From Cymodocea nodosa (lineage: Eukaryota > Streptophyta > Magnoliopsida > Alismatales > Cymodoceaceae), in NCBI GenBank assembly GCA_036874045.1, contig CM072339.1, forward strand, positions 17,677,501 through 17,741,500: a stretch of DNA of 64,000 nt. The letters are read 5' to 3'. Each line of letters starts with the position of its first letter. The stretch's first letter is position 1. Under the pieces are notes generated by a model. That model searched no databases and was not told the DNA's origin. It was given only the letters and a program-made list of their open reading frames with translations. Of the stretch, positions 2,591 through 46,535 are shown one piece after another. The position numbers and the translations under genes are program-made.

Positions 2591-3918
2591 CTTAAGCTAG
2601 GCTTAAGCTAGTCTTAAGTCTGAAAAATGATTCCTTGCAATTTTTATCAAAGTTAAATGGGACATCTTTTAATAGAATAGTTAAAGGTCTATCTATCTTG
2701 CTAAAGTCTTTAATAAATCTTCTATAAAAACCAGCATGTCCTAGAAATGATCTAATATCTTTTACTGATTTAAGTTCTGGTAGATTAGAAATTACTTCTA
2801 TTTTAGCTTTATCTACTTCCAACCCTTTCTTAGAAACAACATGCCCTAAGACTATTCCTTATTTAACCATGAAGTGACATTTTTCCCAATTTAAAACTAG
2901 ATTTTTTTCCACACAGCGTTTTAATATTTGGTCTAAATTGCTTAAACAAACTTCATATGAGTTGTCATATACAGTAAAATCATCCATAAATATTTCTAAG
3001 AAATCTTCAGTCATTCCAGTAAATATGCCTTGTATACACCTTTGAAAGGTAACTGGTGCATTGCATAATCCGAACGGCATTCTCTTAAAAGCATAAGTTC
3101 CATTAGGATAGGTGAAAGTTGTTTTCTCTTGATCCTCTAATGCTATTGGAATTTGGTTATACCTTGAATACCCGTCTAGACAACAAAAATATTCTTGCCC
3201 TACTAATCTTTCCAGCATTTGATCTATAAAAGGTAAGGGAAAATGATCTTTCCTAGCCACAACATTCAGCTTTCTATAGTCTATACATACTCTTCAACCT
3301 GATTGAATTCTAGTAGGTATCAAGTCTTGACTTTCATTCCTAATAACTGTTAATCCTGTTTTTTGGGAACTACATAGATTGGGCTAACCCACGAGCTATC
3401 AGAAATCGGATAAATTATGTCATTATCTAACCATTTAACTATTTCCTTCCTGACTACTTCTTTAAGGTTTGGATTTAATCTCCTCTCAGGAATTCTAACA
3501 GGTTTAGCATTCTCTTCTAAATATATGTGGTGACAGCATAAAGTTGAACTTAACCCTTTTATATCAGTCATAGTCCATCATATTGCTTCTTTATAACTTT
3601 TTACTACATCTTTTAATTTAGCTATTTAATCCTCTTTTAAATCTGAAGCAATAATGATTGAACAGGTCGTTTATCTTTCAGAAATATATAGATTAATTCA
3701 GGAGGTAAAGGTTTTAATTCTAAATGTTACCCATCAGAAACTAGAGTTCCTAATTGAACATCATCATTTTCTAAATGAGTTTCTTCCTGATCTCCTTCTA
3801 TATTTATGCTTTCACTTTCTTTTAAAATTTCAGAATTGATTTGCCTATTTAATTCTTCTTGAATCACATCATCTAACATATCTCCTTCATCCTCTAAAAA
3901 GTCTATGGTATATAAGGA
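2591..3918 (-). pseudogene. Athila-type (Ty3/gypsy) reverse transcriptase of element B, distal half
   Basis: This is the pol continuation of element B, separated from its protease by the insertion of element A. Blocks in order on the minus strand: a linker with FLEDEGDMLDDV; the RT entry region (ERRLNPNLKEVVRKEIVKWL, SWVSPIYVVPKK, about 3350-3500); the palm with DHFPLPFIDQML, FCCLDGYSRYNQIPI, RMPFGLCNAP and the catalytic box IFMDDF (about 2985-3005); then the connection SFLGHAGFYRRFIKDFSKI (about 2680-2770). The box MDDF in place of YxDD is usual for Athila/Tat elements. The frame has several stops (near 3571, 3350-3260 and 2859-2822). It ends at 2592 inside RNase H, next to copia element E. 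It is not functional. Confidence 0.85.
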
Positions 3919-5865
3919 TGTTTGGGTTTTCCCAGCACTACACTAGAAAAACTTGGATTTGTTACTTCTATTTTTTACTTAGTTAATTTATCTTTATGTC
4001 TATTCTTTCTTTTAGAAGTAAACAAACAACCTTTAATACAATTTAGATATTAATTCCAATTTGTACTTTAACTGCAAGTGCACAGTGTCTATTGTATCAG
4101 TGTGCAAGTACAAGTCGATCCCATAGGAAATTGCTGACGAATTTAAGAAATGTTTGATTGTGAACAATTCAAATTTATATTCAATAAGCACTCCGTTGAG
4201 TTACAATTAACTCAACGGACTAAGTTCGTTGAGTTATCGCTAACTCAACAGGCTCTCCTCGTGGACTTAAGTTAACTCCACGAGCCTGTCTCTTCTTTAT
4301 AATACTGCTATTTACAGAGGAATTCGGCCAACCATTGGGCGATTTCACAGATTGTAAATAACATCAATTAAGCTTTTTAATGCTAGTTAACATTAGATTT
4401 ATCATTAAGCAATACTAACATTCAGATGATTCAAACAGTCACCATTAAAATCTTTAAGTTTTTTGTACGAACCAATTTCAGTAAACTGTAAAATTAAAAC
4501 TAACATAAAACAATCATAAAATTGATACAGATAACATTAATCACGATACAACACAAGCAATACAACACTCAAATACAACATACAAACAAAGATAAATTAT
4601 TTTTGGTATTTTTGTTTTGATGTAAACATGGAAATGGGCGAAAGGTGAAATGTAAAGTAATCTCACTTGATAGTAAATACTTTCGACACTACTTGCAATG
4701 TGATTACAACACTGAAAATTAAACCACTTACAATTCTGTCTCCTCTCCCTATAGAATCGCGAGTCCAGAATTGCAAGATGATCTCCTCTTCAGCATACAG
4801 GCATCAACCCGAAGCCAAGGCTAAAAGCTTTACGATCTCCTGAAATATGAGTCAGCGCTTGGTGAAAATGTCTTCCCTTCCCACGACGTGATCACTCCTC
4901 ACAGTGGTTGTCAGGCACTATGTTTGGCTCGGAATCGACCCGACATCAGGCAAGTATCCACACAGACCTCCGATGATTGGTGATTATGGTGGTGATACGA
5001 TGGTTGGTGTGATACTTTAGAGAATCACCGATACTTTCTGTAGAAAGCTCGGTGCTCCTCCTCTGTATACACTGGTCGTCCATCGATCACACCTTCTTCT
5101 TTTTTTCTTCTTTTCTTTTATATTTCTTCAGTAGTAACTGCTTCTGCTTGAATGATCGGTTGGATTTCCTTCCTTCAATCAACGGCGATGCTCCCTTCTC
5201 CTTGCGCGATTGAATTCCTGCGTGATACGTGCAAACATGGTTTTTCCTTCCAACTGTCTGTTCCTACAACCGCTACAGTGGCATTTTAGAAAATAACTAT
5301 AAAATACATGCAATAAAGAAATAAGCCACTAACCTAATGCATTACCTTAGTGTATATTCATGTAACTCAACGCATGCAGTTATGCTAACTTAACGAGTTA
5401 TAACTTAAGTAAATCTACCAGATCTCGACATGTGTCAACAACAGTTTAAACATAAAATAACATTTCGGAGAGTTACAGGTCTAACTATCCGATGCTTAGA
5501 TACATTTTCGAATAGTTACAGCTAACTCACCGAAAATTCACTTAAGACATTCATTCTGGTTTCGACACGTGTACATTTGGAAATAATAAAATATTCTCTC
5601 TAAACATAACTATTCAGCAATTTAAACATAACTATCCGAAATATCAAAAAATTCGAATACTTAAGAATTTCACAACCTGCAACTTACTGATAGTTCATAA
5701 ATGTACTAAATTAACATTAATTCCCCAAAATTAAGTAGATTCTTCAATTAAAGCATATAATAGTGCAATTATAACATAATGGCTTAATTCTCATATGATA
5801 AGCTAAATATTATGCAATTAACCATCATTTAGTCGTTAATAATATGCACTTTTTCATTCTAAACA
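3919..5865 (-). repeat. 3' LTR of element A
   Basis: 1947 bp, from TGTTTGGG at 3919 (3' end of the element) to CTAAACA at 5865. It is almost identical to the 11876-13821 copy. A three-palindrome cluster lies at 4190-4285 and a candidate TATA box (minus) at 5117-5123. A less AT-rich stretch at 4740-5280 is shared with the other LTRs. Confidence 0.9.
5117..5123 (-). promoter_or_regulatory. candidate LTR TATA box, 3' LTR of element A
   Basis: Minus-strand ATATAAA is conserved at the same place in all three LTRs (here, 13074-13080 and 16674-16680), followed by an A/G-rich stretch. If used, U3 is about 740 bp. Transcription would start near 5090, placing the palindrome cluster at 4190-4285 inside the transcribed R/U5 part. 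Confidence 0.45.
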
Positions 5866-5873
5866 CTTCCCCC
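5866..5873 (-). other. polypurine tract of element A
   Basis: Minus-strand GGGGGAAG lies directly against the 3' LTR start. This is the expected plus-strand primer position. Confidence 0.75.
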
Positions 5874-7631
5874 ATACCTAAATTTTGCCAGTCCCTTAGC
5901 AAACTAAGATCTAATTAATTGTTCTTTCAAAAAGTGCTAGAATTTATTCTTCCCCTTTTGTTTTTTTTCTTCTGTTTAGCATAAACATATATTCTGTATG
6001 TTTCAGTAATCAACCTGCAAAGATATTTAGAATATATGTAAATTACATACAAAGTATATCATCTTCATATAGGTGTTAATTATACTATCATTTGTTCTTC
6101 TTTCATCATCTGTAATCCTGAATTTTCCAATAAGTTTTCTAGAAGAAATTTCTACATCATACAAATCAAAATACAATCCAATTCAATCTGATTAAGACAA
6201 GTAGAATAAAGAATTGTATTTTCAACTTCAAAAGTCAATTCCAGATTCATATTTCAACAATTCTAGATAACAGAAAATATACTCGATTCATAAGATATCT
6301 GTATTTCACAAAACACTTGTATCTTTTCAGAACAGTATATTTTTTTTTTTTTTTGTACTTTAAAAGTTAATTTGACAAGCTTGAATCATACAAGAGCTTT
6401 CTAATGTACCCATGTAACGAGCTTTCAGTCAACAATCCCAGATCTGATCAAGATCTTAGGTTGCTAGATTTTCAGAGTCCTTTTTCATGTCAACAATCCT
6501 TACATACCTATCTGCTCAAGTACAAAAGACTCGTGATCAAATAAGTCAATAAACTCTCAAAGTTTTTTTTCTCTCTTTTTTTTCTTTTTCTTTTTTTTTC
6601 TAAAAATAAATGCACACACAAAACAAAGCATTAATCACATACTGTATATGCATGTATTTCATTAATAAAGATGTAGTAAAACACCAATCTCATATAATCC
6701 TACTTCTATCATTTACTAAAAATATGAATCCATAACAATAAGCTCATACTTTATCTGTAGTTTAATAAGATCTACACATAAATCATTCTACAAGTTCAAT
6801 CAGTCAAAGTAAATGTATCTTTCATCATATGTGTTTCATTTACTCCAGAATTCACATCTCAGCTCCTTTAGGACTTCAGATAATTTTCTGATTAAGCATT
6901 AAATATTCTGATTTCATTTTAAAATCGTGAAACTTTTAAACTCAAGAAATTCAGAAAAATCATAAGATACTATATCTAGATTTACATAAATAATAAATTC
7001 TATAGCATCTTCTATAGCCTTCTAAATATAACATTCAAGCAGTTTATAAAAATTTTACAGTCTCAATTATCAGATAGTTACAACAAGTTCATAAAAATTT
7101 TCAATTTCCTCAAAACTTTGCAATACCATTTTAATTCCTTTAATTAACAAACTTACATGGCTGTTACTTTAATTACCTCCCCCCCATACCTACATTTTGC
7201 ATTGTCCTCAATGTAAAAGATTTGACAAAAAGTACAATAATTGTAACAGGCATGAATAAAGTTTTGTTTGATTTAAAATTCAGGATAAGTAATTGGTTAC
7301 ATACCTTGTTCCATTTGTATCTCTTTCTGCATATTTCGATTTTTGATTCTGAAAAACTTTTCATTCCCAGATAAATACAGAATATAAAACAAAATAACAT
7401 TTAACAGATATTAATAAATCAGTGTCTTATGTGGAACCCAGGCTTTTATACCTTTGGTGGCTCACAAGCAAGCCAATTGGTTTCCCAGAACAGATACCAA
7501 CAAATTGGATTGATATTTTGTTTTGTTTGTTTTTTTTTTATAAAATGAACATGAAAAACTTCAAAATTCCTTCTTCTTCTTTTTTTCAATATAAATGCAG
7601 AATACACATGTTAAACACACAAAATCACAGT
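5874..7631 (-). other. non-coding 3' region of element A
   Basis: AT-rich DNA between the F-box ORF and the polypurine tract, with poly-T runs on the plus strand at about 6340-6355, 6560-6600 and 7510-7525. No frame in either direction resembles pol or env. At 7176-7200 there is a second run of C's followed by CATACCTACATTTTGC, nearly repeating the sequence at the true polypurine tract (5866-5890). It may be an internal or ancestral polypurine tract. Confidence 0.6.
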
Positions 7632-8771
7632 TTAAGAACATGATTGAAAAGTAGAAACAAATGGAATAAATGTATCAGTCCAAGCAAACTTTTTAGGCAT
7701 AGTTCTTCTTGCTATTAATTCTGTTTTAATGCAGTTCTTGTTCCTTTCTAATTTGTAAACATGCAATATATTATAAATTCCAAATACGAGTGTATTACCA
7801 TTAATGATATGTAATGCAGAAAGGGATCCTTTTTGGTTCCAAGGTAATGTAGCAGTTTCTATTTCTACATCTATTTCAATATACTCCTCTTCCCACTTCC
7901 ATTCATTCATGTCTTCCATAATCCATATTTGAAATTTCATCAGCTCATCCCACCATCTTATCAGACATAAAGTAGGATCATCTTCTTCATTATACCACAT
8001 TCCTATTTGAATTTCATTAAATTCTGCAGATGGTGGTTTAGCTATTTCACTCGATACAAGTAAAATTTCTATATAATCATCATTACTGTCTATGCTCACT
8101 ACGTATAAATTAAATCCATATGCTAATGATATCTCTATGACTAAATAGATATATCCACCAAGTATGACATGTGTTTGGTTAATTAATGATTTTTGTCCTA
8201 GATATATTATAATGTTTTCATTCCAAGATCTGTTCAGAAAATTATACACATTTAAGCGTAAATCTTCACCCCAATTTCCTGTAGGTCTCCAATAATATAA
8301 TTTTTCAGAAATTGCAGAATTTTTATCAGAAAATATTAAAGCTGACCCACAATTTACAGTTGGTGCTTCAAATCTATTAGGTCTTCCTATATTCCATTCT
8401 TCTCCTATTATAGGATTTCTTATCAAAATATCAGGTAATGATAAACTTGCATACCTTGGTCTCATCTTGTATATGATTAATCCTTCATCTATCCCCATAA
8501 TATGACTCATTCCTTCTAATGCATTGGGTAGAATTCCAGTAGTTTCTTCCATAGCCAGATATTCATGGGTATTTGAACTACGATTAAATGACCTCCATAT
8601 GAATCCATCTCTAATCTTAGTCATTTTTGCAACTTGTAGTCCCTGAAAATATTTTTCTTCAATACAGTCTTTAATTTCCTTTGATACACAACACAGTCTG
8701 CATAGATCTTTAGCTGACAAGTTACTTAGTATTTCCCTTAGTGCATTCAATGATAATTGCATTAATTCCAT
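7632..8771 (-). CDS. F-box protein carried by LTR element A
   Basis: An intact frame of 379 codons starts at the ATG at 8771. The frame is open up to an ATG at 8864, but those 31 extra residues come from the palindromic spacer, and the F-box begins right after the inner Met. Residues about 6-46 fit the F-box pattern: LSLNALREILSNLSAKDLCR, then CCVSKEIKDCI and F. F-box domains bind SKP1 in SCF ubiquitin ligases, and the C-terminal part picks the substrate. Here the C-terminal 300 residues resemble the plant FBA/kelch-like type: an IRNPIIGEEW segment near residue 115, many Trp and aromatic strands, and no transmembrane segment. The ORF has no introns and sits between gag (end 8961) and the 3' LTR in the same direction. 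A frameshifted sister copy follows gag at 20.2 kb. Capture from a host mRNA is inferred. The domain is well supported; a function is not known. Confidence 0.8.
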   Translation of the reverse strand: MELMQLSLNALREILSNLSAKDLCRLCCVSKEIKDCIEEKYFQGLQVAKMTKIRDGFIWRSFNRSSNTHEYLAMEETTGILPNALEGMSHIMGIDEGLIIYKMRPRYASLSLPDILIRNPIIGEEWNIGRPNRFEAPTVNCGSALIFSDKNSAISEKLYYWRPTGNWGEDLRLNVYNFLNRSWNENIIIYLGQKSLINQTHVILGGYIYLVIEISLAYGFNLYVVSIDSNDDYIEILLVSSEIAKPPSAEFNEIQIGMWYNEEDDPTLCLIRWWDELMKFQIWIMEDMNEWKWEEEYIEIDVEIETATLPWNQKGSLSALHIINGNTLVFGIYNILHVYKLERNKNCIKTELIARRTMPKKFAWTDTFIPFVSTFQSCS

Positions 8772-8843
8772 TTGTCGATTCTGTAAAATAAAAAACAAAA
8801 ATTTAGTAGAGACAAAAATTAACATAACTACTGCACACCCTCG

Positions 8844-8900
8844 TGGAGTTAAGGCATAGCTCAACGGACTAAGTTCATTGAGTTAAAAATTAACTCTATG
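8844..8900. repeat. palindromic repeats between gag and F-box ORF
   Basis: GTGGAGTTA...AGCTCAACGG and CATTGAGTTA...TTAACTCTATG half-sites lie in the gap between gag and the F-box ORF. They are of the same class as those in the LTR and leader. Confidence 0.6.
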
Positions 8901-8960
8901 ATACTATTAACTTAAAATAAAACATATATACATATAGATAGTTGCTTCAGATATGTTGCT

Positions 8961-10148
8961 TCATTCAACTGCCCTTCCAGAAGAGGTATCAATTTCATTA
9001 ACCGTTCTATTGACAGGATTAGCTATAGCTTGTATTGGCAATCCTCTAGTAGGTCTAACTTCCATTGGTTCCTTCTGTCTAAGTGATATATTTCTATTCT
9101 GATTTTGATTTGCAACATTTCCAAATATAAATTCTAGACGATTGTTTACTTGTTGGATTATCTTTTCTAATTTCTCTATTCTAGCTCCTTGTTCAATTAA
9201 TACTTCATAACTTATGTTCTTCTCATTTATATTTTCTCCTCCCTGGAAATTATTGTTTGTCCAAGATAAATTTGGGTGATTTCTCCAATTAGGATTATAA
9301 GAATTTCCCAAGTTATCTCTCTGGTTTCTAGCATAAATAATATCTAAGTCATTTATGTTTGTATTTTTTTCTGCTAGCTTTTGATTTAATGATAACTCTT
9401 CTATTTTCTTTGTTAATTCATTTAATTTCACCTCAAGCATAGTATTGGAATCTATTTCATGCATTCCTCTTGGCAATAATTTTTTATCTGCAATAGCTTC
9501 AGCCGAATTTTCCCACTGTGCAATTCTTTTTGCAAAATTTTCTAAATATGCCCATGCTTCTTCACTACATAATTTTAAAAATCCATTTTGACAAGTAGAT
9601 TCTAATAAAGATTTCGTTGAAACATCTATGCCTTCATAAATTATGCCTATTAATTGTGCTTTACTCATTGCATGATGTGGACATTGAGTCAGTAAATCTT
9701 TAAATCTTTCAAAATATTTCCAGAATGATTCACCCTGTTTTTGGCTACACATTAATATTTCTTTCTTCTTTTTAATCGTTTGATGTGTTGGATAGTATTT
9801 TTCCAGAAAAACAGAGTAAAATTCAGTCCATGTAGAAATTGAATCAGGCGATAGAGTATATAATCATCTCTTAGCTGTATCTTTTAAAGAAAAAAGGATA
9901 TATCTAAGTTTAATAGAATCTATACTCATGTTCGACATTCTCATCATTTGACAAACTTCGTTAAATTCTCTAAGGAAATAATAGGCATCCTCTCTTTCTA
10001 ATCCATGAAAATGTGGCAATTGACTAATATAATTAGATTTCAGTTCAAGTCTATCTCCCTCAAAATTTGGCAATCGAATACATGAAGGTTCATCAATTAA
10101 TTCAGGATACGGAATCTCTGCTAATGGTTTTTCTACTAGAGCAGCCAT
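8961..10148 (-). pseudogene. Athila-type gag of element A with an in-frame TGA
   Basis: Start ATG at 10148. The frame is open to 9867, meets a TGA at 9864-9866, and is then open for about 300 codons to the stop at 8961. The TGA replaces the tryptophan expected in the capsid motif K-R-W-L-Y-T-L. Recognisable Athila/Tat gag features are YISQLPHFHGLEREDAYYFL, EFNEVCQMM, the conserved ESFWKYFERFKDLLTQCPHH block (about 9660-9735) and the tail YNPNWRNHPNLSW (about 9260-9300). The zinc knuckle that Athila gag usually carries between capsid and this tail is absent. Element C has the TGA at the same codon. Either both descend from an already broken gag, or the stop is read through; I favour decay or trans-complementation. 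Confidence 0.75.
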
Positions 10149-10272
10149 CTCTACGTTCTCTTTTAAAGAAAGGTTAGCTACACTCCAAAGAATTTCGTTA
10201 AAGTTTAGTTCAGAAAATTTTTCAGTACTCCTCTACAATGAAAATTCCTAGGTAGGTGTTCTTACTAATCGT

Positions 10273-10578
10273 TTAGTGCTTAGAGAACGAGTCCTTGTGC
10301 TCATAAATAAATAGCAAAAGATTAATTACATACCAATCTGAAGCTTTCCATTCTATAAATATTTGTTGTCGAATGAAGATTGAATCAGCTGCTTCTCCTT
10401 CTAGTTCCTCCAACGCTTTCTCCTTTCTTTTAAAAGCGCTTGTAACCCATAAATAACATTCTATTTCATATATATATTGCGCATCCATAAAGTGAATAAA
10501 TCTTGCTGCAAGAACGTGGCTTGCAACGTGCATCGTGGTTCCTGTTTTTATGGGTACGTGTACCACTACTAATTTCAA
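10273..10578 (-). other. leader ORF of element A with a possible splice donor
   Basis: A 101-codon frame upstream of gag, rich in Glu/Lys in its middle (KRKEKALEELEGE). It matches no family I recognise, and the frame is not kept in element C. At 10333 the minus strand has TTG|GTATGT; at the equivalent place in C (22104) it has CTG|GTATGT. This could be a donor of a leader intron ending just before gag. It may be non-coding. Confidence 0.3.
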
Positions 10579-10639
10579 ATTTTGGTAACCGCTAAACCGA
10601 GGAAGTTTCGTTTGTGGTTAAAAGAATAACCGTTCTGCT

Positions 10640-10815
10640 TAATCCACGAACTAACCTCGTTGAGTTACAGATTACTCAACAGAACATAGTCGATTACTAT
10701 TGCTAACTCCATGAACTAACTTCATTGAGTTACAGATAACTCAACGGAGTGACCTTATATTATATTACTGACCTCGTGGAGTTACGGTTAACTCAACGGA
10801 CTTACTTTGTTGAGT
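10640..10815. repeat. leader palindrome cluster 1
   Basis: Several imperfect palindromes of the type CGTTGAGTTA-N4-TAACTCAACG, separated by about 40-60 bp, in the transcribed leader of element A. A matching cluster lies at 22428-22620 in element C. Confidence 0.7.
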
Positions 10816-11317
10816 TAACACTTGGCAACTTCTAAGTTTCACTCTTGTAAGTTTTCTATTCTGTTTTTTTTTTTCTTTGTTTTTCATTCTGCTAACTGTA
10901 ATAAAGTTAAATCTATGTCATTAATGCCTCATTTTGATTAAAATATATTTAACTCTGAACATTATATAAAGATTTAACTTGCAAGTCATTTTACGTTATG
11001 CAGAATTTACATTTTACCTTATAACATGCAGTAATTTTTAAGCAGTTATCCTGTCATTCAGCAAATTGTAAATCTGTTACATATTCATAAAGTTCCACAA
11101 ATTACATAATATTCAATAAATTCCATTCATTTCACATCCAAATACGTATGAAAATTGCATCTGAAAAATTATATTCGTTAATATGAATCAATTACCTTAC
11201 AAGTACACCATACAATTTCATACAATTTTACACAAGTAGACGAGCAATACAATTTAATCTCTATGCCTAAATTCATCTACTTCCTTCTGAATTTTTTCTA
11301 ATTTTAGGTCTTAGCTA

Positions 11318-11422
11318 CAGTACTCTGTTGAGTTACAGTTAACTCAACGGAATAAGCTCGTTGACTAACTCAAGAATTAACAAAGTATACTCGTTGAGTT
11401 AAGCGTAACTCAACGGACTCCC
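11318..11422. repeat. leader palindrome cluster 2
   Basis: Two near-perfect copies of GTTGAGTTA...TAACTCAACG(G), at about 11325-11351 and 11390-11416, plus a degenerate one between them. Confidence 0.7.
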
Positions 11423-11477
11423 CGTACAAGCAAATATAATAATAAAAATATTACAGAGAATAGTTTTTTTATTTTTT

Positions 11478-11765
11478 TACTGATTTAACCGATACTATGC
11501 TTCGGTCAGACCTAAATATTTTTTATTTTTTTATTTTTCTTTCAATTGAACCGATACTATGTTTCGGTAAAACCAATATTTTTTTCTGAAAATTAATATA
11601 CAATTTTTCTTGCCGGTTTAACCGATACTATGCTTCGGTCAGACCTAAATATTTCGGTTGGACCGATATTATGTTTCAGTAAAAACAATATTTTTTTCTA
11701 AAAATTAATATACAATTTTTTTTTTAATGTTTCGATCATACCGATGGATCAAGTCGGTTGAACCA
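11478..11765. repeat. tandem ACCGATACTATG...TTCGGT repeats in the leader
   Basis: A block next to the primer-binding region of element A with alternating units containing ACCGATACTATG then CTTCGGTCAGACC or TTTCGGTAAAACC. Each is followed by an AT-rich spacer; four or five copies are seen. ACCGA and TCGGT form a short stem around a 9-10 base loop. A (CAATT)n run follows at about 11808-11850. Confidence 0.65.
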
Positions 11766-11851
11766 CAACTATTTTTATGTTTTATATATATTTTTAATGT
11801 TTAACTCAATTCAATTCAATTCAATTCACTTCGACTCAATTCAATTCAATT

Positions 11852-11868
11852 CCCCAGCAACGGCACCA
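11852..11868 (-). other. primer-binding site of element A
   Basis: Minus-strand TGGTGCCGTTGCTGGGG resembles the tRNA-Asp-type site typical of Athila elements with two mismatches, and lies seven bases inside the 5' LTR. Confidence 0.75.
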
Positions 11869-11875
11869 TAAAACT

Positions 11876-13821
11876 TGTTTAGGTTTTCCCAACACTACAC
11901 TAGAAAAACTTGGATTTGTTACTTCTATTTTTTACTTAGTTAATTTATCTTTATGCCTATTCTTTCTTTTAGAAGTAAACAAACAACCTTTAATATAATT
12001 TAGATATTAATTCCAATTTGTACTTTAACTACAAGTGCATAGTGTCTATTGTATTAGTGTGCAAGTACAGGTCGATCTCATAGGGAATTGCTGACGAATT
12101 TAAGAAATGTTTGATTGTGAACAATTCAAATTTATATTCAATAAGCACTCTGTTGAGTTACAGTTAACTCAATGGACTAAGTTCGTTGAGTTATGGCTAA
12201 CTCAACAGACTCTCCTCGTGGACTTAAGTTAACTCCACGAGCCTGTCTCTTCTTTATAATACTGCTATTTACAAAGGAATTCGGCCAACCATTGGGCGAT
12301 TCCACAAATTGTAAATAACATCAATTAAGCTTTTTAATGCTAGTTAACATTGGATTTATCATTAAGCAATACTAATATTCAGATGATTCAAACAGTCACC
12401 ATTAAAATCTTTAAGTTTTTTGTACGAACCAATTTCAGTAAATTGTAAAATTAAAACTAACATAAAACAATCATAAAATTGATACAGATAACATTAATCA
12501 CGATACAACACAAGCAATACAACACTCAAATACAACATACAAACAAAGATAAATTATTTTTGGTATTTTTGTTTTGATGTGAACATGGAAATGGGCGAAA
12601 GGTGAAATGTAAAGTAATCTCACTTGAAAGTAAATACTTTCGACACTACTTGCAACGCGATTACAACACTGAAAATTAAACCACTTACAATTCTGTCTCC
12701 TCTCCCTATAGAATCGCGAGTCCAAAATTGCAAGATAATCTCCTCTTCAGCATACAGGCATCAACCCGAAGCCAAGGCTAAAAGCTTTACGATCTCCTGA
12801 AATATGAGTCGGCGCTTGGTGAAAATGTCTTCCCTTCCAGCGACGCGATCACTCCTCACAGTAGTTGTCAAGCACTGTGTTTGGCTCGGAATCGACCCGA
12901 CATCAGGCAAGTATCCTCACAAACCTCCGATGATTGGTGATTATGGTGGTGATACGATGGTTGGTGTGATACTTCGAAGAATCACCGATACTTTCTGCAG
13001 AAAGCTCGGTGCTCCTCCTCTGTATACACTGGCCGTCCATCGATCACACCTTCTTCTTCTTTTCTTCTTTTCTTTTATATTTCTTTAGTAGTAACTGCTT
13101 CTGCTTGAATGATCGGTTGGATTTCCTTCCTTCAGATTAGCGGCGATGCTTCCTTCTCCATGCACGATTGAATTCCTACGTGATACGTGCAAACGTGGTT
13201 TTTCCTTCCAACTGTCTGTTCCTGCAACCGCTACAGTGGCATTTTAAAAATAACTATAAAATACATGCAATAAAGAAATAAGCTGCTAACCTAACGCGTT
13301 ACCTTAGTGTATATTTATGTAACTCAACGCATGCAGTTATGCTAACTTAACGAGTTATAACTTAAGTAAATCTACCAGATCTCGACACGTGTTAGCAGCA
13401 GTTTAAACATAAAATAAATTTCGGAGAGTTACAGGTCTAACTATCCGATGCTCAGATGCATTTTCGGATAGTTACAGCTAACTCACCAAAAATTCACTTA
13501 AGACATTCATTCTGGTTTCGACACGTGTACATCTGGAAATAATAAAATATTCTCTCTAAACATAACTGTTCGGTAATTTAAACATAACTATCTGAAATAT
13601 CAGAAAATTCAGATACTTAGGAATTTCACAGTCTGTAACTTACTGACAGTTCATAAATGTACTAAATTAACATTAATTCCCCAAAATTAAGTAGATTCTT
13701 CAATTAAAGCATATAACATTGCAATTATAACATAATAGCTTAATTCTCATATGATAAGCTAAATATTATGCAATTAACCATCATTTAACCGTTAATAATA
13801 TGCACTTTTTCATTCTAAACA
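11876..13821 (-). repeat. 5' LTR of element A
   Basis: 1946 bp, TGTTTAGG to CTAAACA, matching the 3' LTR closely. The palindrome trio lies at 12146-12242, the candidate TATA box (minus) at 13074-13080, and GGATAGTTA-type palindromes at 13417-13500 and 13560-13600. Confidence 0.9.
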
Positions 13822-15403
13822 AAGGACATTTCTAACTCCTCAAACCTTTCTGGTTTCAAAAAATATATAATTGAGTGTCCTCATTACCATATGCTAACTT
13901 CATTACTCCAGTTTTACAATTTATAACAGCCCCTAATGTTGCTAAAAATGTCCTTCCCAAAATTAAAGATGTATCACTATTTTTATGCTTAATTTGTTGG
14001 GAATCCAAAATTACAATATCAATAGGATATATAAAATTTTTGATTTTAATTAAAACATCCTCTATTTTTCCTCTAGGCTATCTTATACTTCTATCAGCTA
14101 ATTGAATAACCGTACTAATAGGAGTTAAGCTTTCTAATCCTAAGGATGCAAATATATCACTTGGCATAACATTTATACCTGCACCTAAGTTTATTAAGGT
14201 TCTTTCTAAAATGGTATTTCCTATGGTGCATGATATAACAGGGATTCCAGGATCAGATAACTTTTTAGGAATTTGTGGCAAAAATAGGGAACTACTTTGC
14301 TCAGCTAAAAAGACCTTTCTAAGAACTTTTCGCTCTCTTTTCCTAGTACACCAATCCTTCAGAAATTTAGCACAAGTTGACATTTTCTGCAATAGATCTA
14401 ACAAAGGAATGTTAACTTGTACTTTTTCAGAAATTTCTCTGATTTTTTCTTATTTTTTAGGTATTGTTTGTTGTAATCTTTCAGGATAGGGTGCTAAAGA
14501 TTTTGATTTCAAAGATTCTTTTTCTTTCAATTGATTTGTTTGATCATTTTTAGCTTCATTAGTAGATTCAGATTGTTCTTCAGTGATTTCTAGATTTTTA
14601 GCTATTACATTTTCATTATCATTTTGATTTTTACTCTTATCCACCTTCATATCATTTTCATTTTAAGTTCTTGGTGGTATATCAGTTCCAGATCTTAATG
14701 TTACACATACATCTTCCAGATTTTCGTTACTCTCATGATGTTTTTGTATGTCATTTTCGTAATTATGATCTTCAATTGTTTTTAGTTTTAAAATGCATTC
14801 TTTAAATTCTCTTGCATTAGTATTTTCTGTTTGTTGTATATTTTACAAATTATGTAGGTTTATAACATTATAATTTTCATTGTCCTGTTGCATAATTTGT
14901 ATTTTCATTATATATTCGTTTAATGTTTTTAGTTTTCTTTCCAGATCATCTAATCTCATTGCATTCAATTTTTAATCAATTTTCATTATGGTTTTTTCAG
15001 TTTCGTAAATTATATCTTTTTTAGGTTCTGAATATGCTTCCTTATAATTTAATTGGTTGACTTCTTGTTGCTGACACATAAAGTATTCCAGTTTGTCAAG
15101 ATTTTGCTCTATACTATGCTCTAGTTTGTCATACCTATCCCAAACTTCAGTGTCTCTCAACATATTACACATTCTATACTGACCATCAATTGGGTAAACT
15201 ATAAGATTCTCATACTCGGCTCTATTATATTGAGGATAATTCATTTGTTGTTCATAGGATCTAACCATCTGTAAACGTCTCAATTTCAAACAGTCAGAAA
15301 TGTCGTGTCCTTCAGAATTACAGAATTCACATATGCTAATTACAGGTTTTAAAAATCTTTGAGCATAAGCATATGCCATATTCTCAATTACAGAAGAAAA
15401 CAC
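13822..15403 (-). pseudogene. Athila gag C-terminus and protease of element B, proximal half
   Basis: Read right to left. A short start (MFSSVIENMAYAYAQRFLKP) leads at once to a zinc knuckle CEFCNSEGHDISDC (about 15290-15335). An acidic/basic linker follows, with the Athila hallmark VTLRSGTDIPPRT (about 14670-14710), then LAPYPERLQQT, FLKDWCTRKRERK, and the protease block CTIGNTILERTLINLGAGIN and IQLADRSIR (about 14080-14245). The expected catalytic DLGAS reads NLGAG, so the protease would be inactive. The capsid half of gag is missing, although LTR and primer site are present: an internal deletion. Stops near 14970, 14660 and 14450 also break it. The frame stops at 13826, where element A is inserted, and resumes at 3918. 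Confidence 0.8.
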
Positions 15404-15474: not shown

Positions 15475-15491
15475 CCCCAGCAACGGCGCCA
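15475..15491 (-). other. primer-binding site of element B
   Basis: Minus-strand TGGCGCCGTTGCTGGGG is one mismatch from the usual tRNA-Asp-type Athila site, seven bases from the LTR. Confidence 0.8.
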
Positions 15492-15498
15492 TATAACT

Positions 15499-17674
15499 TG
15501 TTTGTATTTTTCCAACACTACACTAGAAAAACTTGGATTTGTTACTTCTGTTTTTACTTAGTTAATCTATCTTTATGCCTATTCTTTCTTTTAGAAGTAA
15601 ACAAACAACCTTTAATACAATTTAGATATTAATTACAATTTGTACTTTAATTGCAAGTGCATAGTGTCTATTGTATCAGTGTGCAAGTACAAGTCGATCC
15701 CATAGAGAATTGCTGAAGAACTTGAGAACTATTCGTTTCTTAACAATCAAATTTATATATTCAATAAGCTCTCCGTTGAATTACAATTAACGGACTAACT
15801 CAACGAACTAACCTCGTGGACTTAAGTTAACTCCACGAGCCTGTCTTTTCTTTTTAATACTACTATTTACAGAGAAATTCGGCCAACCATTGGGCGATTC
15901 CATAGATTGTAAATAACATCAATTAAGCTCTTTAATGTTAGTTAACATTGGATTTATCATTAAGCAATACTAACATTCAGATAATTCAAATAGTAACTAT
16001 TAAAATCTTTAAGTCTTTTAAACGAACCAATTTCAGTAAACTGTAAAACTAAAACAACATAAAGCAATCATAACACTGACAAAGATAACATTAATCACGA
16101 TACAACACAAACAATACAACACTCAAATACAACATACAAACATAGATAAATTGTTTTTGGTATTTTTGTTTTAATATGAACATGGAAATGGGCGAAAGGT
16201 GAAATGTAAAGTAATCTCACTTGATAGTAAATACTTCTGACACTACTTACAACGCGATTACACCACTGAAAATTAAATCACTTACAATTCTGTCTCCTCT
16301 CCCTATAGAATCGCAAGTCTAGAATTGTAAGATAATCTTCTCTTTAGCATACAGGCATCAACCCGAAGCCAAGGCTAAAGGTTTTACGATCTCCTGAAAT
16401 ATGAGTCGGTGCTTGGTGAAAATGGCTTCCCTTCCCACAACGCGATCACTCCTCACAGTAGTTGTCAGGCACTATGTTTAGCTCGAAATCGACCCAACAT
16501 CAAGAAAGTATTCTCACAGACCTCCGATGGTTGGTGATTGTGGTGGTGGTAACAATGGTTGGTGTGATACTTCGGAGAATCACCGATACTGTCTATAGAA
16601 AGCTCGGTGCTCCTCCTCTATATACACTGGCCGCCCATCGATCACACACCTTTTCTTCTTTTTCTTCTTTTCTTTTATATTTCTTCAGTAATAACTGCTT
16701 CTGCTTGAATGGTCGGTTGGATTTCCTTCATTCATATCAACGGTGATGTTTTCTTCTCCCTACGCGATACGTGTAGTTGTGGTTTTTCTTCCAACTATCC
16801 TGTTTCTGCAACCGCTACAGTGGCATATTTGAAAATAAATAGTCCGTGGAGTTACAGATAACTCAACAGACTTTCTTCGTTGATTTAACTATAAAACACG
16901 TGCATAAATTTAACTATCTGATGCTTAGGTGTATTTCGGATACTTATAAACTTAACTATCCGATGCTCAAATGCATTTCGGATAGTTATAAATAACTCAC
17001 CGATATATAACTTAAGTAAATCTACCAGATCTCGACACGTGTCAACAACATTTTAATCATAAAATAGCATTTCAAAGAGTTGCAGGTCTAACTATCCGAT
17101 GCCCAAATGCATTTCGAATAGTTAGAGATAACTCACTGAAAATCCACTTAAGTCACTTTCCCAGAACATGACACGTGTCCTCAACTATTTTATAAATAAA
17201 AAGAGATTTTGGAGAGTTATACATATAACTATCTGATGTCTAGCTGCAATTTCGGATAGTTATAGATAACTCACCGAAAGTTCACTTAACTCATGCATTA
17301 TGGTTTCGACACGCGTACTTCAGGAAATAATAAAATATTCTCTCAAAACATAACTATTCGGCAATTTAAACATAACTATCTGATACATGTTTGGTCTGTT
17401 AAACATAACTGTCCGAATATGTTCGGTATGTTAAACATAACTATCTGAATTATCAAAAAATTTGGATACTTAAGAATTTCACAGCCTGCAACTTACCGAC
17501 AGTTCAGAAATGTACTAAATTGACATTAATTCCCTAAAGTTAAGCAGATTCTTCAATTAAAGCATATAACAATGCAATTATAACATAATGGCTTAATTCT
17601 TATATGATAAGCTAAATATTATGCAATTAGCCATCATTTAACCGTTAATAATACGCACTTTTTCATTCTAAATA
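15499..17674 (-). repeat. 5' LTR of element B
   Basis: 2176 bp, the same family as the element A LTRs but more diverged. It is about 230 bp longer, because the segment 16830-17450 holds extra copies of the GGATAGTTA/TAACTATCC palindrome units. The outer end reads TAAATA rather than TAAACA. The partner LTR is not in the window; it would lie beyond copia element E. Confidence 0.85.
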
Positions 17675-17676
17675 AG

Positions 17677-17945
17677 GAGCTACGTGCATAAAGATCAAGT
17701 TTTATATAATTCAAAATTAACTTAAAATAAAGACTTCATTTTCTAATTGAATTGTATATCAAACTTTATCGTATCAAAACCAACAAGAAGGGAATTGAGC
17801 TGAAAAGAAATTGTAAATTCTTTCTTTAAAGTTTATCAAGAATAGAATTTTATTTACAAGTGTTTTGTGCTCTTATTTTATCTACTAGTAATATTAATTA
17901 CTAAAGACACAATTCACCCCCTTTTTGTGATACAATGATCCTACA
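17677..17945 (-). repeat. left arm of a diverged inverted repeat
   Basis: In reverse complement this aligns by eye with 19262-19515. Shared landmarks are TGCACGTAG at the outer ends, CAATTGAATTGTATAT-like sequence, ATAAGAGCACAAAA, and GTATCACAA followed by G-rich GGTGAATTGT at the inner ends. It begins two bases after the LTR end of element B, so B may have inserted at its edge. The nature is unknown: two head-to-head insertions of one repeat, or the arms of a DNA element. Confidence 0.55.
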
Positions 17946-19261
17946 GGTTCAACCAAAGTTTTGAAAAATAATAATAATAAATAAAATAAAATAAATATAT
18001 ATATATGTAATAGTTATATAAGATATAACTTCTAAGGAAGTTCATTGAGTTACACTTAACTCAACAAACTTACTCCATGGAGTCTTTGGATAAGCCTACA
18101 AACTTAGTCTATTGAGTTAACGTGTAACCCAATGAAATACTAGCATAAGTCCATGAACTTAGTCTATTGAGTTAACATGTAACTCAACAGAGTACTTGAT
18201 AGGTTCTTCATTCAAATGAACATCAACACTTATTTTCTTCTTCTTTCAATTCACACCTTCTTCTCAAATGCGCCAAGCCACCATTGGTGAGTGTCATTCA
18301 CTCATGTGAAAGCCTCACCAACAACCCCAACAATACACATGAATAGAGGATGCAAATTAGAAGTTGAAAAGAAGAATTAAACATTCATATACATTCATTG
18401 AACTCTATCTAACTAAGAAGACATATAATTGAGATGTTCACCACCATTTCTCATCAATTCTTCCTTCTATACAAGAAAATAATAAACTCTAAGAGTTGTC
18501 ACAACCTTAGGAGCTTCTTATCTTCTTCTCTAGAGGTTTGAATTCAATGGAACTTGGCAACAACTTCACCTCCAAGCTTGGACGTCTTCTCCTTAGCCCT
18601 TGGAATGGTGAATAGCATGAATGGATGGTCTCTCTTTGGAAGCACAAGCCTCACCTCCAAGCTTCTTCTCCTTTGGTATTCTCTCATTGGAAGCACCCCA
18701 AGTTGTTGGCCGAAATTCCTCTCCCCTTGTATTTATGTTGTTGTGTCTTCTCTCTCTTTGATGTGGCACCTTGGTTTTATCACCAAGCCAATAAGATGTC
18801 ATAGATCTAGGAGGGCCAATAAGGTGTTGGCATGTCCTCTTCTTTAAAGTTTAGTCCACCAACTTTTGATTCTTTACATCTTCTTTGGTCTTTTGCATTA
18901 AGCTCCTCCCATATGTGTGTTACCTACAATTAATGGAAGTTGAACTCCAAGAGACGTTAGCCAACATAGGACATGCAAAATAAATTAATGTGTTCCATGT
19001 AAAATTATATCCAATGAAGGATGCACTTGTTAATTAAATTTCTATATTGCACTATATTTCAAGACTTATATTACCCATAGTTAATATCATTTATCCACCA
19101 TAGATATATAATATCATGCAAAATTACTTATAAAATTCATTAAAAATGGACAAAATTAAAGCTTGAATAGTACTAGCATAAGTCCATGAACTTAGTCAAC
19201 TAAGCTAATGTGTAACTCAATAGAGTAGCAAAGGTAAGTTGTGCATAAATTTGTGCGGTGT
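17946..19261. other. spacer between inverted-repeat arms
   Basis: It contains (TA)n-like DNA near 17990, TTGAGTTA/TAACTCAA palindromes at 18040-18200 and a CT-rich segment at 18230-18800. An ORF at 18554-18847 resembles no protein I know. No gene is supported. Confidence 0.4.
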
Positions 19262-19515
19262 TGGACCGTAGTATCACAAGAGGGGAGGTGAATTGTATCT
19301 TTATTTTTTAAGAAACTAGCAAATACAATAAGAGCACAAAAGACTCACTATATGAAATTCTAAACTTTTTTATTGATAAAGTAAGAATTTATAGATGTTT
19401 ACAATACAATTTCGTACTTGTCGGTTTAGATACAATTTTCGAGTTAAAATTCAATACGAAATAAAATCTATCTTATTCTAACCTCAATTGAATTGTATAT
19501 TCAAACTTGAGCTTT
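19262..19515 (+). repeat. right arm of the inverted repeat
   Basis: Counterpart of 17677-17945, beginning GGACCGTAGTATCACAAG and ending near TTTTGCACGTAG. Identity is clearly well below 90 per cent by eye. Confidence 0.55.
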
Positions 19516-20222
19516 TGCACGTAGTTTTCTGATTCTTCAAAAAATTATTGCTCAACTTCTGTATCTCTTTGCTTCCTTCTTTGAATCTCCAAGACTTCCT
19601 TCATAGTAGCTCTTTCTTTAATTTTGCTTAGGATTCTATTGTGGAATACAATTTTGGGATTTTAGAGATTAGTGTAGGGATAGGTGTAGGCATACATAAA
19701 GTATAGCTCATACTCTTCATTTATAGTAGTAGAACTGTGTTTTCACGTTCAACATGTTCAACCACATGATTCATAATTCATAATCTCACATATTAATTTA
19801 AATTTAAATTATCCACAATCTCCATTGACTTTTTGAATTTCCATTATCTCCACTCTATTTTTGAATCTCCATGATCTCCTATCATAGAACAATCAAAAGT
19901 CTTCTTTCTAGAGAGTCATAGAATATATCTTCTAAGTCACCACTTTATTCAAACACTTATCTTTTAAAACCTGCAAAAACTCAAACATTTATCTATAACT
20001 CTTCGAGGTTTTCACTTGCAAAACACGTGATTGAAACAAATAAACTTAACTTTTCATTAGTCACTTTATAAAACTCGAACAGTTATCTATCCATGCATAA
20101 AAACTCGAACAATTATTTAACTCTTCAACTTTTCTTTACTGAATGCACATGGAAAACATATGACAATTTAAAACATTAAAAAAACATGTGCAAATCAATC
20201 CTAAGTCACTTCCCATAATATA
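19516..20222. other. AT-rich stretch without a gene
   Basis: No coding frame or known repeat recognised. Short phrases such as GAATCTCCATGATCTCC recur (19800-19885). The F-box homology of element C starts abruptly at its right end. Confidence 0.4.
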
Positions 20223-20500
20223 GTCTACTCCTAACGCATTAGGTGGAATTCCAAAAGTTTCTTCTATACTCATATGTTCATAACTTGCTATACTACAACT
20301 GAATAATTTCCATAAGAATCCATCATTGGTATTGGTTGTCTGAGCAGCTTACAATCTATGGAAGTAACTTTCTACTATGTATCCCTTAATTTGTTTTGAA
20401 GCACATCGTAATCTACATAAATCTTTAGCTAATGAGTAACTTAATATTTCTCTCAAACACATCCAATGACAAATCCATAATTCCTAGACTTTGTGATTCT
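20223..20500 (-). pseudogene. truncated, frameshifted F-box ORF of element C
   Basis: It is a sister of the element A F-box ORF. Starting near IMDLSLDV (about 20465-20490), a one-base shift is needed to continue as LREILSYSLAKDLCRLRC, ASKQIKGYIVESYFHRL, then EETFGIPPNALGV. A stop interrupts after HRL. Only the F-box and a short following part remain. It shows the same domain as element A, so the gag/F-box pairing predates both copies. Confidence 0.75.
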
Positions 20501-20554
20501 ATAATCAACAACATAAAAATGCAAATAAAATTTAATTCTCCATGTGCTATGTTC

Positions 20555-20605: not shown

Positions 20606-20710
20606 CTCAACGAATCTTAGAACAATAAATAAAACTATGTTGTTATATGTGCTATTTTTTGTGGTTTTTTTTTTACATATATATATATTGTTAATAGCAA
20701 TTATATTACT

Positions 20711-21904
20711 TCATTCTACTTCCCTCCTACTAGAGGTATCAATTTCATTTACATTTCTATTTAAAAGATTAGGTACTGCTTGACTTGATAACCCTCCTAT
20801 AAGTCTAACTTCAATTGGTTCTTTTAGTTTAGTTGGTATATTTTTGTTTAAATTTTGATTTTGGAATGCTGTATTTCTAAATATATGATCTAAATAATTG
20901 TTTAAATTATGAATTATCTTTTCTAATTTATCTATTTTAGCTCCTTGTTTAATTAATGCTTCATAACTTTGATTTTTATCATTTACATTCTCTCCTCCTT
21001 GGAAACTATTATTTCTTTAGGATAAATTTGGGTGATTTTTCCAATTAAGATTGTAAGCATTACCAAAATTATCTTTTTGGTTTCTAGCATAAATAGCATC
21101 TAAGTCATTCACACTTGCACTTTTTTCTACTAATTTTTGATTTAATGACAATTCTTCTATTTTCCTTGTTAATTCACTTAATTTGACTTCTAGCATAGTG
21201 CTCGAATCTATTTCATGCATTCCTCTAGGTAGCACTTTCCTATCTAAAATGGCTTCAACCGAGTTCTCCCGTTGAGTAGTTTTTTTTGCAAAATTTTCTA
21301 AATAAACCCATACTTCATCGCGACACATTTTTAGAAATCCATTTTGATATGTAGATTCTAATAAAGATTTTGTAGCAACATTTATACCTTCATAAATTAT
21401 ATCTATTAGTTGAGATTTACTCATTGCATGATGTAGGCATTGAGTGAGTAAATTTTTAAATCTTTCAAAGTATTTCTAAAAGGATTCTCCTTGCTTTTGG
21501 CTACACATTAATATTTCTTTTTTCTTCTTAATTGTTTGATGAGTAGGGTAGTATTTTTCTACGAAAACTGAACAAAATTCAATCAATATAGAGATTGAAT
21601 CGAGAGACAAAGTGTAAAGTCATCTCTCAACTATATCTTTTAAAGTAAAGAAAATATATCTAAGTTTGATAGCATCTATGCTCAAATTAGACATTCCCAT
21701 CATTTGACAAACCTCATTAAATTCTCTAAGGAAATAATAAGTATCTTCTCTCTCTAATCCATGAAATTGTGGTAATTGACTAATATAATTAAATTTCAAT
21801 TCAAGTCTATCTCCCTCAAAAGTAAGTAATCAAATTCATGATGATTCATCTACCAATTTTGAATAAAGAATTTTTCCTAATGGCCTCTCTACTAGAGTTG
21901 TCAT
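20711..21904 (-). pseudogene. gag remnant of element C
   Basis: ATG at 21904, end at 20711. It matches element A gag along its whole length: ISQLPQFHGLEREDTYYFL, EFNEVCQMM, YFERFKNLLTQCLHHAMS, MHEIDSSTMLEVKLSELTRK, YNLNWKNHPNLS. Stops include TGA at 21620-21622, at the same codon as the element A TGA, one near 21840 and one in the SFWKYF motif (about 21475). The longest open part is 21017-21424. Confidence 0.8.
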
Positions 21905-22427
21905 CTCAATGTTCTCCTCTAATGAAATTCTAGCTGTTTCTTGAAGAATATCATTGATTTCTGTTTCATATGCTTTATAAATTTTTTTAAGTACTATATG
22001 ATCCTATTTAGCTATTCTAAGTAATCTCTTAGTATTGAGAGAATGAATCTAGATGCTCATAAACTTACAACATATATTAAGTTTAAAAAGGTAAGACTAC
22101 ATACCAGTTGTAATACTCATTTGATAGTTTTGATAATACTTGAGGCCGTCAACAGATGAAGTTGAACCAGTTGATTCTCTTCACTGTCGACTACGAGTAT
22201 TCTACCCTTCTTTTACTATTGGTGTTAAGATTATGACACTCTGTTTTTTCTTTTTTATAATGTTCTTCCATTCTATGGACGCACTCACATTACAAGAATG
22301 TGTCTTGCAACGTGTGTTGTGGTTCCTACATTTATGAATACGTGTTCTAAGCTTAAATTTAAATTCTTAGTAACCGCTAAGCACACAAAGTCATGTGCAT
22401 GGAAAAAATAATAACTATTTAGACAAC

Positions 22428-24898: not shown

Positions 24899-25572
24899 GA
24901 ATTCGAGATTGGAAGCTGTCGTCTGTTCCGGATCTCCCCACAGATATCCGCGACCTACGGCTCGTAAGGTACGCTGCTGCTCTTTTGCCCTTCTTCGTCG
25001 TTCTTTGGGAGGAGAACGTGCTGAGGATCGATGCAGTGGACTTGTGCGGATCTGTCATGGATATTGAATTTTGTTTTATTCCCAGGCTTCGTGTGATGAG
25101 GGTCGCTGGCGAAGGAGCCGGCGGGAGAAGGTTCAGCTTAATGTTTTCGCTTTTAATGATGATGAAACGCTAACTTTCAGTGATGAAAACATTGCATTTG
25201 TTAGATTTCATTCTTGTACCACGTAGGTGCTTGCAGTTTTGTTCGTGTCCTATGATCCTCTTCCCCATTCCTGCGTTTCTTGCATATTTCTTCGTTTTAA
25301 ATTGAATGATTAGTTTTGTATGTTGAACCGCTTGTTTTTTGGATCGTTAATCGCACGACTGGAGACTGCCGATTGGTCCCTATGTGGATTTATTGCCGTG
25401 GAGAATTTTTGAGTGTTTTTCAAGCTTTAAAAGCACACTAATCTTTGTTTTCTCGTGTCTAGTTTGAACTCTCTGTTCGTTCATCCAGTGATGACGCGTT
25501 CATGTAATGCCTTGACTGCAATGGAGCACCTGCAGAAGAAATACTTTTAAATTGGCCTCGAAGGATTTCAAA

Positions 25573-38939: not shown

Positions 38940-39113
38940 TATTAGACGTTATTTAAAGGGTTAGATAGTAGTATTGAGGAGGAGAATCATTTTGTAGTCT
39001 TTTTATATACAATTCCTGTATCTGTACTTTTCATATATATACCACTCTCATCCCAAAGGAGCAGCACACCTAACTTTGGTGCTCCACACGTATCTATTTT
39101 TTTACCTTCTACA
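38940..39113 (+). repeat. 5' LTR of element D
   Basis: 174 bp, starting TATTAGACG (a TA instead of the usual TG) and ending CTTCTACA. It includes TTTTTATATACAATTCC, a possible TATA region. Confidence 0.85.
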
Positions 39114-39141
39114 TGGTATCAGTTGCCTAGTCGTCTCCTTT

Positions 39142-41438: not shown

Positions 41439-41440
41439 AG

Positions 41441-41607
41441 TATTAGACGTTATTAAAGGGTTAGATAGTAGTATCGAGGAGGATCATTTTGTAGTCTTTT
41501 TATATACAATTCCTGTATCTGTACTTTTCATGTATATACCACTCTTATCTCAAGGAGCGGCATACCCAGCTTTGGTGCTCCATACATATGTTTTTTTACC
41601 TTCTACA
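41441..41607 (+). repeat. 3' LTR of element D
   Basis: 167 bp, matching the left LTR with a few small deletions and substitutions. Confidence 0.85.
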
Positions 41608-42129
41608 GTGTGCGATCAGCGCCGCCACTCGAACGCAGAAGGGCGTAAGCTCCAGAGGCCCGATCACAAACACCAGGTTTGTGCATGGAAGACTTTGGTC
41701 TTCTCCGGTGAATGAATGAACTCCTGCATGATAATCAAGTACGTATATGCCCAACATGGGATCAAAGATATCCATGCACGTAAATCATATGATCAGTAGG
41801 TACATGTGCAGGATCAAATGTTAGATGCATGGAAATTAAATGTATGTATCTTTGACAAAGTATAAACATATATATATGCGTGAAATCAAATGCATCTACA
41901 CTTTGCAAATATTCTCACATTTGGATATTAATATGAATACCCAAAATAAAATTAAAATGTTTTGGATATGAAATTTGATATCCAAATAATAAAAATTATT
42001 AAATGTTATCAACCCAAACTATCTAATCTTTACTTGGATATGAAAAATAAATATTCAAGTGATTAGAAAATATTTGTAGTTTCTATATACGAGCTAAAAT
42101 TATATTTTGATACATCAAAAATTAAAGTA

Positions 42130-46497: not shown

Positions 46498-46535
<38 letters not shown>

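Follow-up and report, generated by a model that had tools for sequence, protein, structure and literature searches.

Element A and its two genes

We analyzed a window of 64,000 nucleotides (nt) of the Cymodocea nodosa genome (GCA_036874045.1, contig CM072339.1, positions 17,677,501-17,741,500 of the forward strand; coordinates below are relative to this window). It contains, on the minus strand at positions 3919-13821, a complete long terminal repeat (LTR) retrotransposon, which we designated element A. Our main finding is that the coding part of A consists of gag followed by an open reading frame (ORF) for an F-box protein, and that the same pair of genes recurs, decayed, in a second element of the window, designated element B. 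The features of A, in its direction of transcription, are listed here.

13822..13826, minus strand: target-site duplication TCCTT, 5' side
11876..13821, minus strand: 5' LTR, 1946 bp
11851..11868, minus strand: primer binding site TGGTGCCGTTGCTGGGGA, tRNA-Asp type (16 of 18 positions identical to what we take to be the tRNA-Asp complement)
10327..10334, minus strand: candidate splice donor G/GTATGTA, located in the leader; B has the same site, with the G of its GT at 22104
9867..10148, minus strand: gag, part before an in-frame TGA
9864..9866, minus strand: in-frame TGA inside gag, found at the same place in B (about 21620-21622)
8961..9863, minus strand: gag, part after the TGA, with PF03732 and without CCHC knuckle
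8781..8802, minus strand: candidate splice acceptor, followed 9 nt downstream by the F-box ATG and ranking first among the 165 YAG sites of the internal region
7632..8771, minus strand: F-box ORF, 379 amino acids, intact, behind gag and in the same direction
5866..5878, minus strand: polypurine tract GGTATGGGGGAAG, directly adjoining the 3' LTR
3919..5865, minus strand: 3' LTR, 1947 bp
3914..3918, minus strand: target-site duplication TCCTT, 3' side

A preliminary description of this stretch had proposed complete LTRs, a primer site, a polypurine tract and a 5-bp duplication, and all of these were recovered. The paired direct LTRs end in TG...CA and are 95.6% identical (BLAST); together with the target-site duplication, primer site and polypurine tract they make up the full set of marks by which LTR retrotransposons are recognized. 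Over 1945 aligned sites the two LTRs differ by 82 substitutions (Kimura two-parameter distance 0.044) and three 1-nt indels, which presumably corresponds to an age of about 1.7-3.1 million years, at the substitution rates that we assume. Transitions account for 76 of the 82 substitutions, an excess that would fit dense methylation and silencing. The tRNA-Asp-type primer site is a feature of the Athila clade; in Diaspora and Calypso, of the Athila group, a tRNA-Asp primer site likewise lies a few bases inside the LTR (PMC1142308).

An inverted motif, GTTGAGTTA...TAACTCAAC, is repeated within A at 4194-4241, 8843-8890, 10658-10822, 11326-11406 and 12151-12231. These positions fall in the LTRs, in the leader and between gag and the F-box ORF; the motif is also found in the spacer and leader of B. 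It is possibly a regulatory or recombination site.

The gag of A matches PF03732 (8.9e-7, at 8964-9752), whereas the part upstream of the TGA has no Pfam match of its own. It is not intact, being split in two by the TGA. A protein search returned six relatives, with 33-37% identity over 44-65% of the query, whose lineage is unnamed in the database; viral contigs gave no relative of gag. Three of the six have the full CX2CX4HX4C knuckle (P0001, P0002, P0006), two a partial one (P0004, P0005), and P0003 stops short of it. A is gapped at the knuckle position in the alignment, and B aligns to A across this region without insertion; both elements therefore lack the knuckle. As for pol, none of the eight stop-free coding-strand frames of at least 45 amino acids in the internal region of A shows a pol domain in Pfam (the gag frame being covered over 263 of 300 amino acids). 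Above the cut-offs, only the gag and F-box frames match, in agreement with the earlier proposal of gag followed by an intact F-box ORF in the same direction, in place of pol.

At the given base composition, 379 stop-free codons would arise by chance with a probability of about 3e-16. The preliminary description had considered that a hidden Markov model might give no F-box score for 7632-8771; the score is 34.4 bits (PF00646, 1.8e-8), well over the cut-off of 20.5. The same description had assigned an FBA/kelch-like C-terminus to the protein, a label that we could not support because the C-terminus has neither a Pfam match nor a usable model: it gave no match to FBA, kelch or any other Pfam family at E up to 10 (repeats up to 1), a result that leaves room for a diverged relative, and the full-length AlphaFold model has a confidence score (pLDDT) of 37. 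Modeled from sequence alone, residues 1-55 form three helices, with pLDDT of about 80 over residues 11-40. When this model was compared with the PDB by Foldseek, 27 of 38 match titles named SKP1/ASK, an SCF complex or an F-box protein, none of the matches being individually significant (best E 0.62). The comparison with viral predicted structures gave 182 matches at E up to 10 and none at 0.001 (best 0.44); many of the 50 matches listed were named F-box, from which we draw no inference. No relatives of the F-box protein were found in plasmids, viral contigs, or bacterial and archaeal genomes.

A second copy and the constraint on the F-box gene

Self-comparison of the window showed that the gag of A is repeated at 20702-21927 with 81% identity. 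Right behind it, the F-box protein of A matches 20193-20459 (54% over 90 amino acids, 4e-22). We assigned the following features to B.

20714..21903, minus strand: degraded gag, 81% and 83% nucleotide identity to A in two parts
20499..20520, minus strand: candidate splice acceptor that ranks first among the 84 YAG sites of B; the ATG of B itself follows 20 nt downstream
20190..20486, minus strand: F-box remnant with one in-frame stop and one frameshift

A stop-free piece of 36 amino acids from this remnant scores 20.5 bits, exactly at the Pfam cut-off of 20.5, and homology to A is lost beyond about 20192. Another stop in the aligned segment precedes the ATG of B, opposite the start of the F-box ORF of A, and is not counted among the lesions of the remnant. 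An F-box is thus found at both of the places in the window that match the gag of A. The gag stop and the F-box ATG are separated by 189 nt in A and about 232 nt in B, and the two spacers are homologous: they align with a Smith-Waterman score of 87, and none of 500 shuffles exceeded 68. When the comparison was confined to the last 75 nt, 7 of 1000 shuffles reached the observed score. This homology points to a single acquisition of the F-box, shared by A and B.

The preliminary description had also allowed for a single copy accompanied by neutral decay. Within the window, a second copy is present, and the ratio of nonsynonymous to synonymous substitution rates (dN/dS, Nei-Gojobori) between A and B is well below 1: 0.175 over 95 codons of the F-box (bootstrap 95% interval 0.09-0.39, no defined replicate reaching 1), compared with 0.168 and 0.181 for the gag parts before and after the TGA. 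Since a strong transition bias can lower dN/dS without selection, we simulated neutral divergence 500 times per part, with transition biases of 1, of twice the observed transition/transversion count ratio, and of 25. The observed ratio of nonsynonymous to synonymous differences per site (pN/pS) was lower than in 500 of 500 simulations for each of the three parts and at each bias (nine cases). Such a low ratio, below all neutral simulations, indicates that the F-box was maintained as a protein for a large part of the time in which the two lineages diverged.

Base composition was also examined. G+C at third codon positions is 0.21 in the F-box ORF and 0.20 in gag, as against 0.32-0.53 in nearby host exons, a small yardstick, namely six frames (stop-to-stop or ORF) taken from two host genes recognized by eye. 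The gag-like value of the F-box is consistent with a long residence in the element.

The in-frame TGA is common to the gag of A and B, and dN/dS of the flanking gag is near 0.17-0.18 on either side of it. Recoding, an old mutation or two independent deaminations could each account for it; because the aligned gag parts of B hold four more stops, we make no claim on it.

Sites compatible with splicing are also shared. A donor-like TGGTATGTA is common to the leaders of A and B, upstream of gag, and in each element the best acceptor-like site lies just before the F-box ATG; shuffled spacers placed an equally good acceptor near the ATG in 0.25% (A) and 4.5% (B) of cases. The shared donor and the position of the acceptors suggest a spliced mRNA, from which gag is removed, as the template for the F-box protein. 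A spliced mRNA has been described for the env-like ORF of Bagy2 (PMC7264820).

Element C and the rest of the window

A is inserted, in the same orientation, within another element, designated element C, of which fragmentary remnants were found on both sides of the insertion.

15490..17674, minus strand: LTR of C, 88% identical to the LTR of A over the largest aligned piece and 82-92% over others, followed by a tRNA-Asp-type primer site
14078..14449, minus strand: protease-like ORF of C, without Pfam match, which we take to be a protease from motifs presumed typical of Athila
2859..3293, minus strand: reverse transcriptase fragment of C (PF00078, 1.2e-22), on the far side of the insertion of A

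The primer site of C agrees with the presumed tRNA-Asp end at 17 of 18 positions. On account of their order and orientation, these pieces would belong to one element. The LTR at 15490-17674 was also considered as that of B and rejected, because the primer site and the remnants of C follow it. The segment between this LTR and the F-box remnant of B shows an inverted similarity (17680-17945 versus 19259-19524, 72%, with one 43-nt pair at 72%), and suggests that a further element was inserted there (17680-19524).

Several other features were recognized by eye. Positions 1-2600 hold a Ty1/copia-like element located inside the pol of C in the same orientation, with a CCHC-bearing ORF at 1207-1548 and, near 1955, what we take to be a tRNA-Met-type primer site; its leading part contains GGATAGTTA/TAACTATCC repeats resembling those in the LTR of A. 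Direct repeats at 38939-39113 and 41440-41607 (89.7% identical) bracket a copia-like reverse transcriptase ORF (39827-40297) in the region 38939-41715. Exons resembling a plant subtilisin-like protease lie at 44306-49944 on the minus strand, and a first exon resembling a plant GT14-type glycosyltransferase at 25552-25938 on the plus strand.

Accessory gene or passenger, and relation to known systems

The F-box of A looks like a family-level accessory gene rather than a one-off passenger. With moderate confidence, we read A as a non-autonomous member of an Athila-type family whose accessory F-box protein is produced by splicing and acts in an SCF ubiquitin ligase, pol being supplied in trans. 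An ancestor of this Athila-type (Ty3/gypsy) family would have taken up an F-box gene behind gag, at the usual place of pol, and the gene, at least in its N-terminal part, would have been under purifying selection while the lineages of A and B diverged. The protein is likely translated from a spliced mRNA, with a donor in the leader and an acceptor 9 nt before the ATG, gag being skipped. It would join the host SKP1/CUL1 as a substrate receptor and mark for degradation a host protein, such as a silencing factor or a factor limiting Gag assembly, whose loss would benefit the element. Reverse transcriptase and integrase would be supplied by related elements that have pol and resemble A in LTR and primer site, such as those from which C descends; any relatives of C in which pol still works are a natural source of enzymes for A. 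A broader claim may be put forward only tentatively, and we regard it as doubtful: that in plants a family of retrotransposons produces an SCF receptor of its own from a spliced subgenomic mRNA, and that this receptor has been retained over millions of years because it removes a host protein restraining the element, as a counterpart of the retroviral accessory proteins that hijack ubiquitin ligases.

A number of observations weigh against the favored reading. No F-box relative of the protein turned up in 5.8 billion proteins: the search with the full protein gave none at E 0.01 among 2058 candidates, and residues 1-130 none at E 10 among 68 candidates. As this search requires exact shared 5-residue words, its outcome is no proof that relatives are missing from plants. 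In the PDB, a sequence search with residues 1-55 gave four chance-level matches, none of them an F-box, and the full protein gave no match; moreover, no substrate-binding domain was recognized in the C-terminus. Both A and B read LS at a position where most F-boxes read LP, a difference that is not decisive because some well-known F-boxes lack LP as well. In polerovirus P0, LP-motif mutants lost SKP1 binding (PMC6593998). Only two copies are seen in the window, one of them dead, and the selection test spans 95 N-terminal codons of these two copies, with bootstrap replicates of undefined dS dropped. The intactness of the ORF of A since insertion is not significant (P 0.14 under neutral decay), and was rejected as proof of selection by itself. 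As for splicing, donor-like sites number 14 in the leader of A and 3 in that of B, and the acceptor score, T content before YAG, is crude. Finally, dS in the F-box is saturated (1.67, versus 0.67-0.75 in gag), and third positions differ between A and B by 43% in the F-box versus 27-29% in gag; this higher dS may point to recombination, or to an older split in the F-box part, so that F-box and gag may not share one history.

The excess of dS is also what would be expected if A-type and B-type elements had separately captured related host F-box genes. Selection on two host paralogues before their capture would yield the same low dN/dS, but the spacers ahead of the ATG are homologous, GTTGAGTTA repeats and acceptor-like site included, and the order of the genes is the same, with similar spacing; we find two captures quite improbable. 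Another possibility is a passenger, that is, a host F-box transcript or gene captured by chance (retroduplication) and carried along although the element makes no use of it. Plants have large F-box families. LTR elements often capture host genes (672 cases in rice and 1,343 in sorghum; PMC3726574), and a gene of the F-box family has been classed as an 'LTR-gene' in Thlaspi (PMC8764390). A chance passenger is nevertheless hard to reconcile with a position and spacer common to two diverged elements, with purifying selection between them and with the gag-like third positions of the F-box, and we hold it to be unlikely.

The element may, alternatively, have spread an F-box gene that is now used by the plant, selection acting on the host gene. 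In keeping with such a use, the ORF of A is still intact at the presumed LTR age of roughly 1.7-3.1 million years; yet its probability of surviving by chance, given above, makes host selection unnecessary, B has decayed, and the predominance of transitions in the LTRs would rather fit methylation and silencing. We consider host-side use very improbable.

For most extra genes found in plant LTR elements, neither origin nor function is known. That of A has a recognizable and testable biochemical role, the predicted recruitment of SKP1, together with a record of constraint. If its target belonged to the silencing machinery of the host, this gene would offer a direct example of counter-defence in which a plant transposon exploits the protein-degradation system of its host, and would help to explain the persistence of an element devoid of pol; with another target, it would still show an accessory gene worth keeping in an element unable to copy itself.

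Gag-only non-autonomous elements, conserved extra ORFs, cellular-type third ORFs and the capture of host genes are already known from the available literature. The maize element Bs1 lacks pol. Bs1 and LTR-captured genes have in common with A the presence of host-derived sequence in an LTR element (PMC7264820), and such captures are common (PMC3726574, PMC5664825, PMC8764390). Transduced genes are reported to occur in one or few copies (PMC7264820), whereas here two diverged copies share a constrained gene. A constrained F-box gene in the place of pol, common to two diverged elements, did not appear in the searches made: a search on F-box and retrotransposon, covering titles and the beginnings of abstracts and leaving most subscription journals outside, found no LTR element in which a conserved extra ORF is described as an F-box. 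The term F-box has no occurrence in the main text of PMC6317226 or of PMC11963269, and one mention, in the text available, in a paper on flax copia elements (PMC5142383).

Among elements with additional genes, Grande (gene23), Retand (TRP28), PvRetro13 (SMC) and Athila/Calypso (env-like) resemble A in that an additional ORF follows the coding core and is found in more than a single copy (PMC7264820, PMC11963269, PMC6317226). Their additional ORFs sit between pol and the 3' LTR, while no pol was found in A. The extra ORF of A encodes a recognizable F-box protein in sense orientation; resemblance to a known domain was reported for 21.4% of extra-ORF proteins (PMC6317226). Diaspora and Calypso, of the Athila clade, share with A a long leader and the type and position of the primer site (tRNA-Asp, a few bases inside the LTR), but they have pol, and the excerpts of PMC1142308 available do not mention an F-box. 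Like A, LTR elements of bdelloid rotifers carry a gene for a recognizable cellular-type protein, in their case a captured ORF3 (GDSL esterase, DEDDy exonuclease) shared among families; these elements differ in that they retain gag and pol, in that their cargo is enzymatic rather than an F-box, and in their animal host (PMC5408684). As regards function, the P0 protein of poleroviruses offers an analogy, since here too a parasite encodes an F-box-like motif, one that contacts SKP1 (PMC6593998); we claim no sequence relation.

The closest structural parallel is with TR-GAG elements, which like A have two LTRs and gag, are without pol and depend on other elements (PMC9784723). Gag is indeed the only retroviral gene found between the LTRs of A. 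Unlike the single intact gag ORF of TR-GAG elements, however, that of A has an in-frame TGA and no CCHC knuckle, and it is followed by a second ORF, a non-retroviral gene under constraint.

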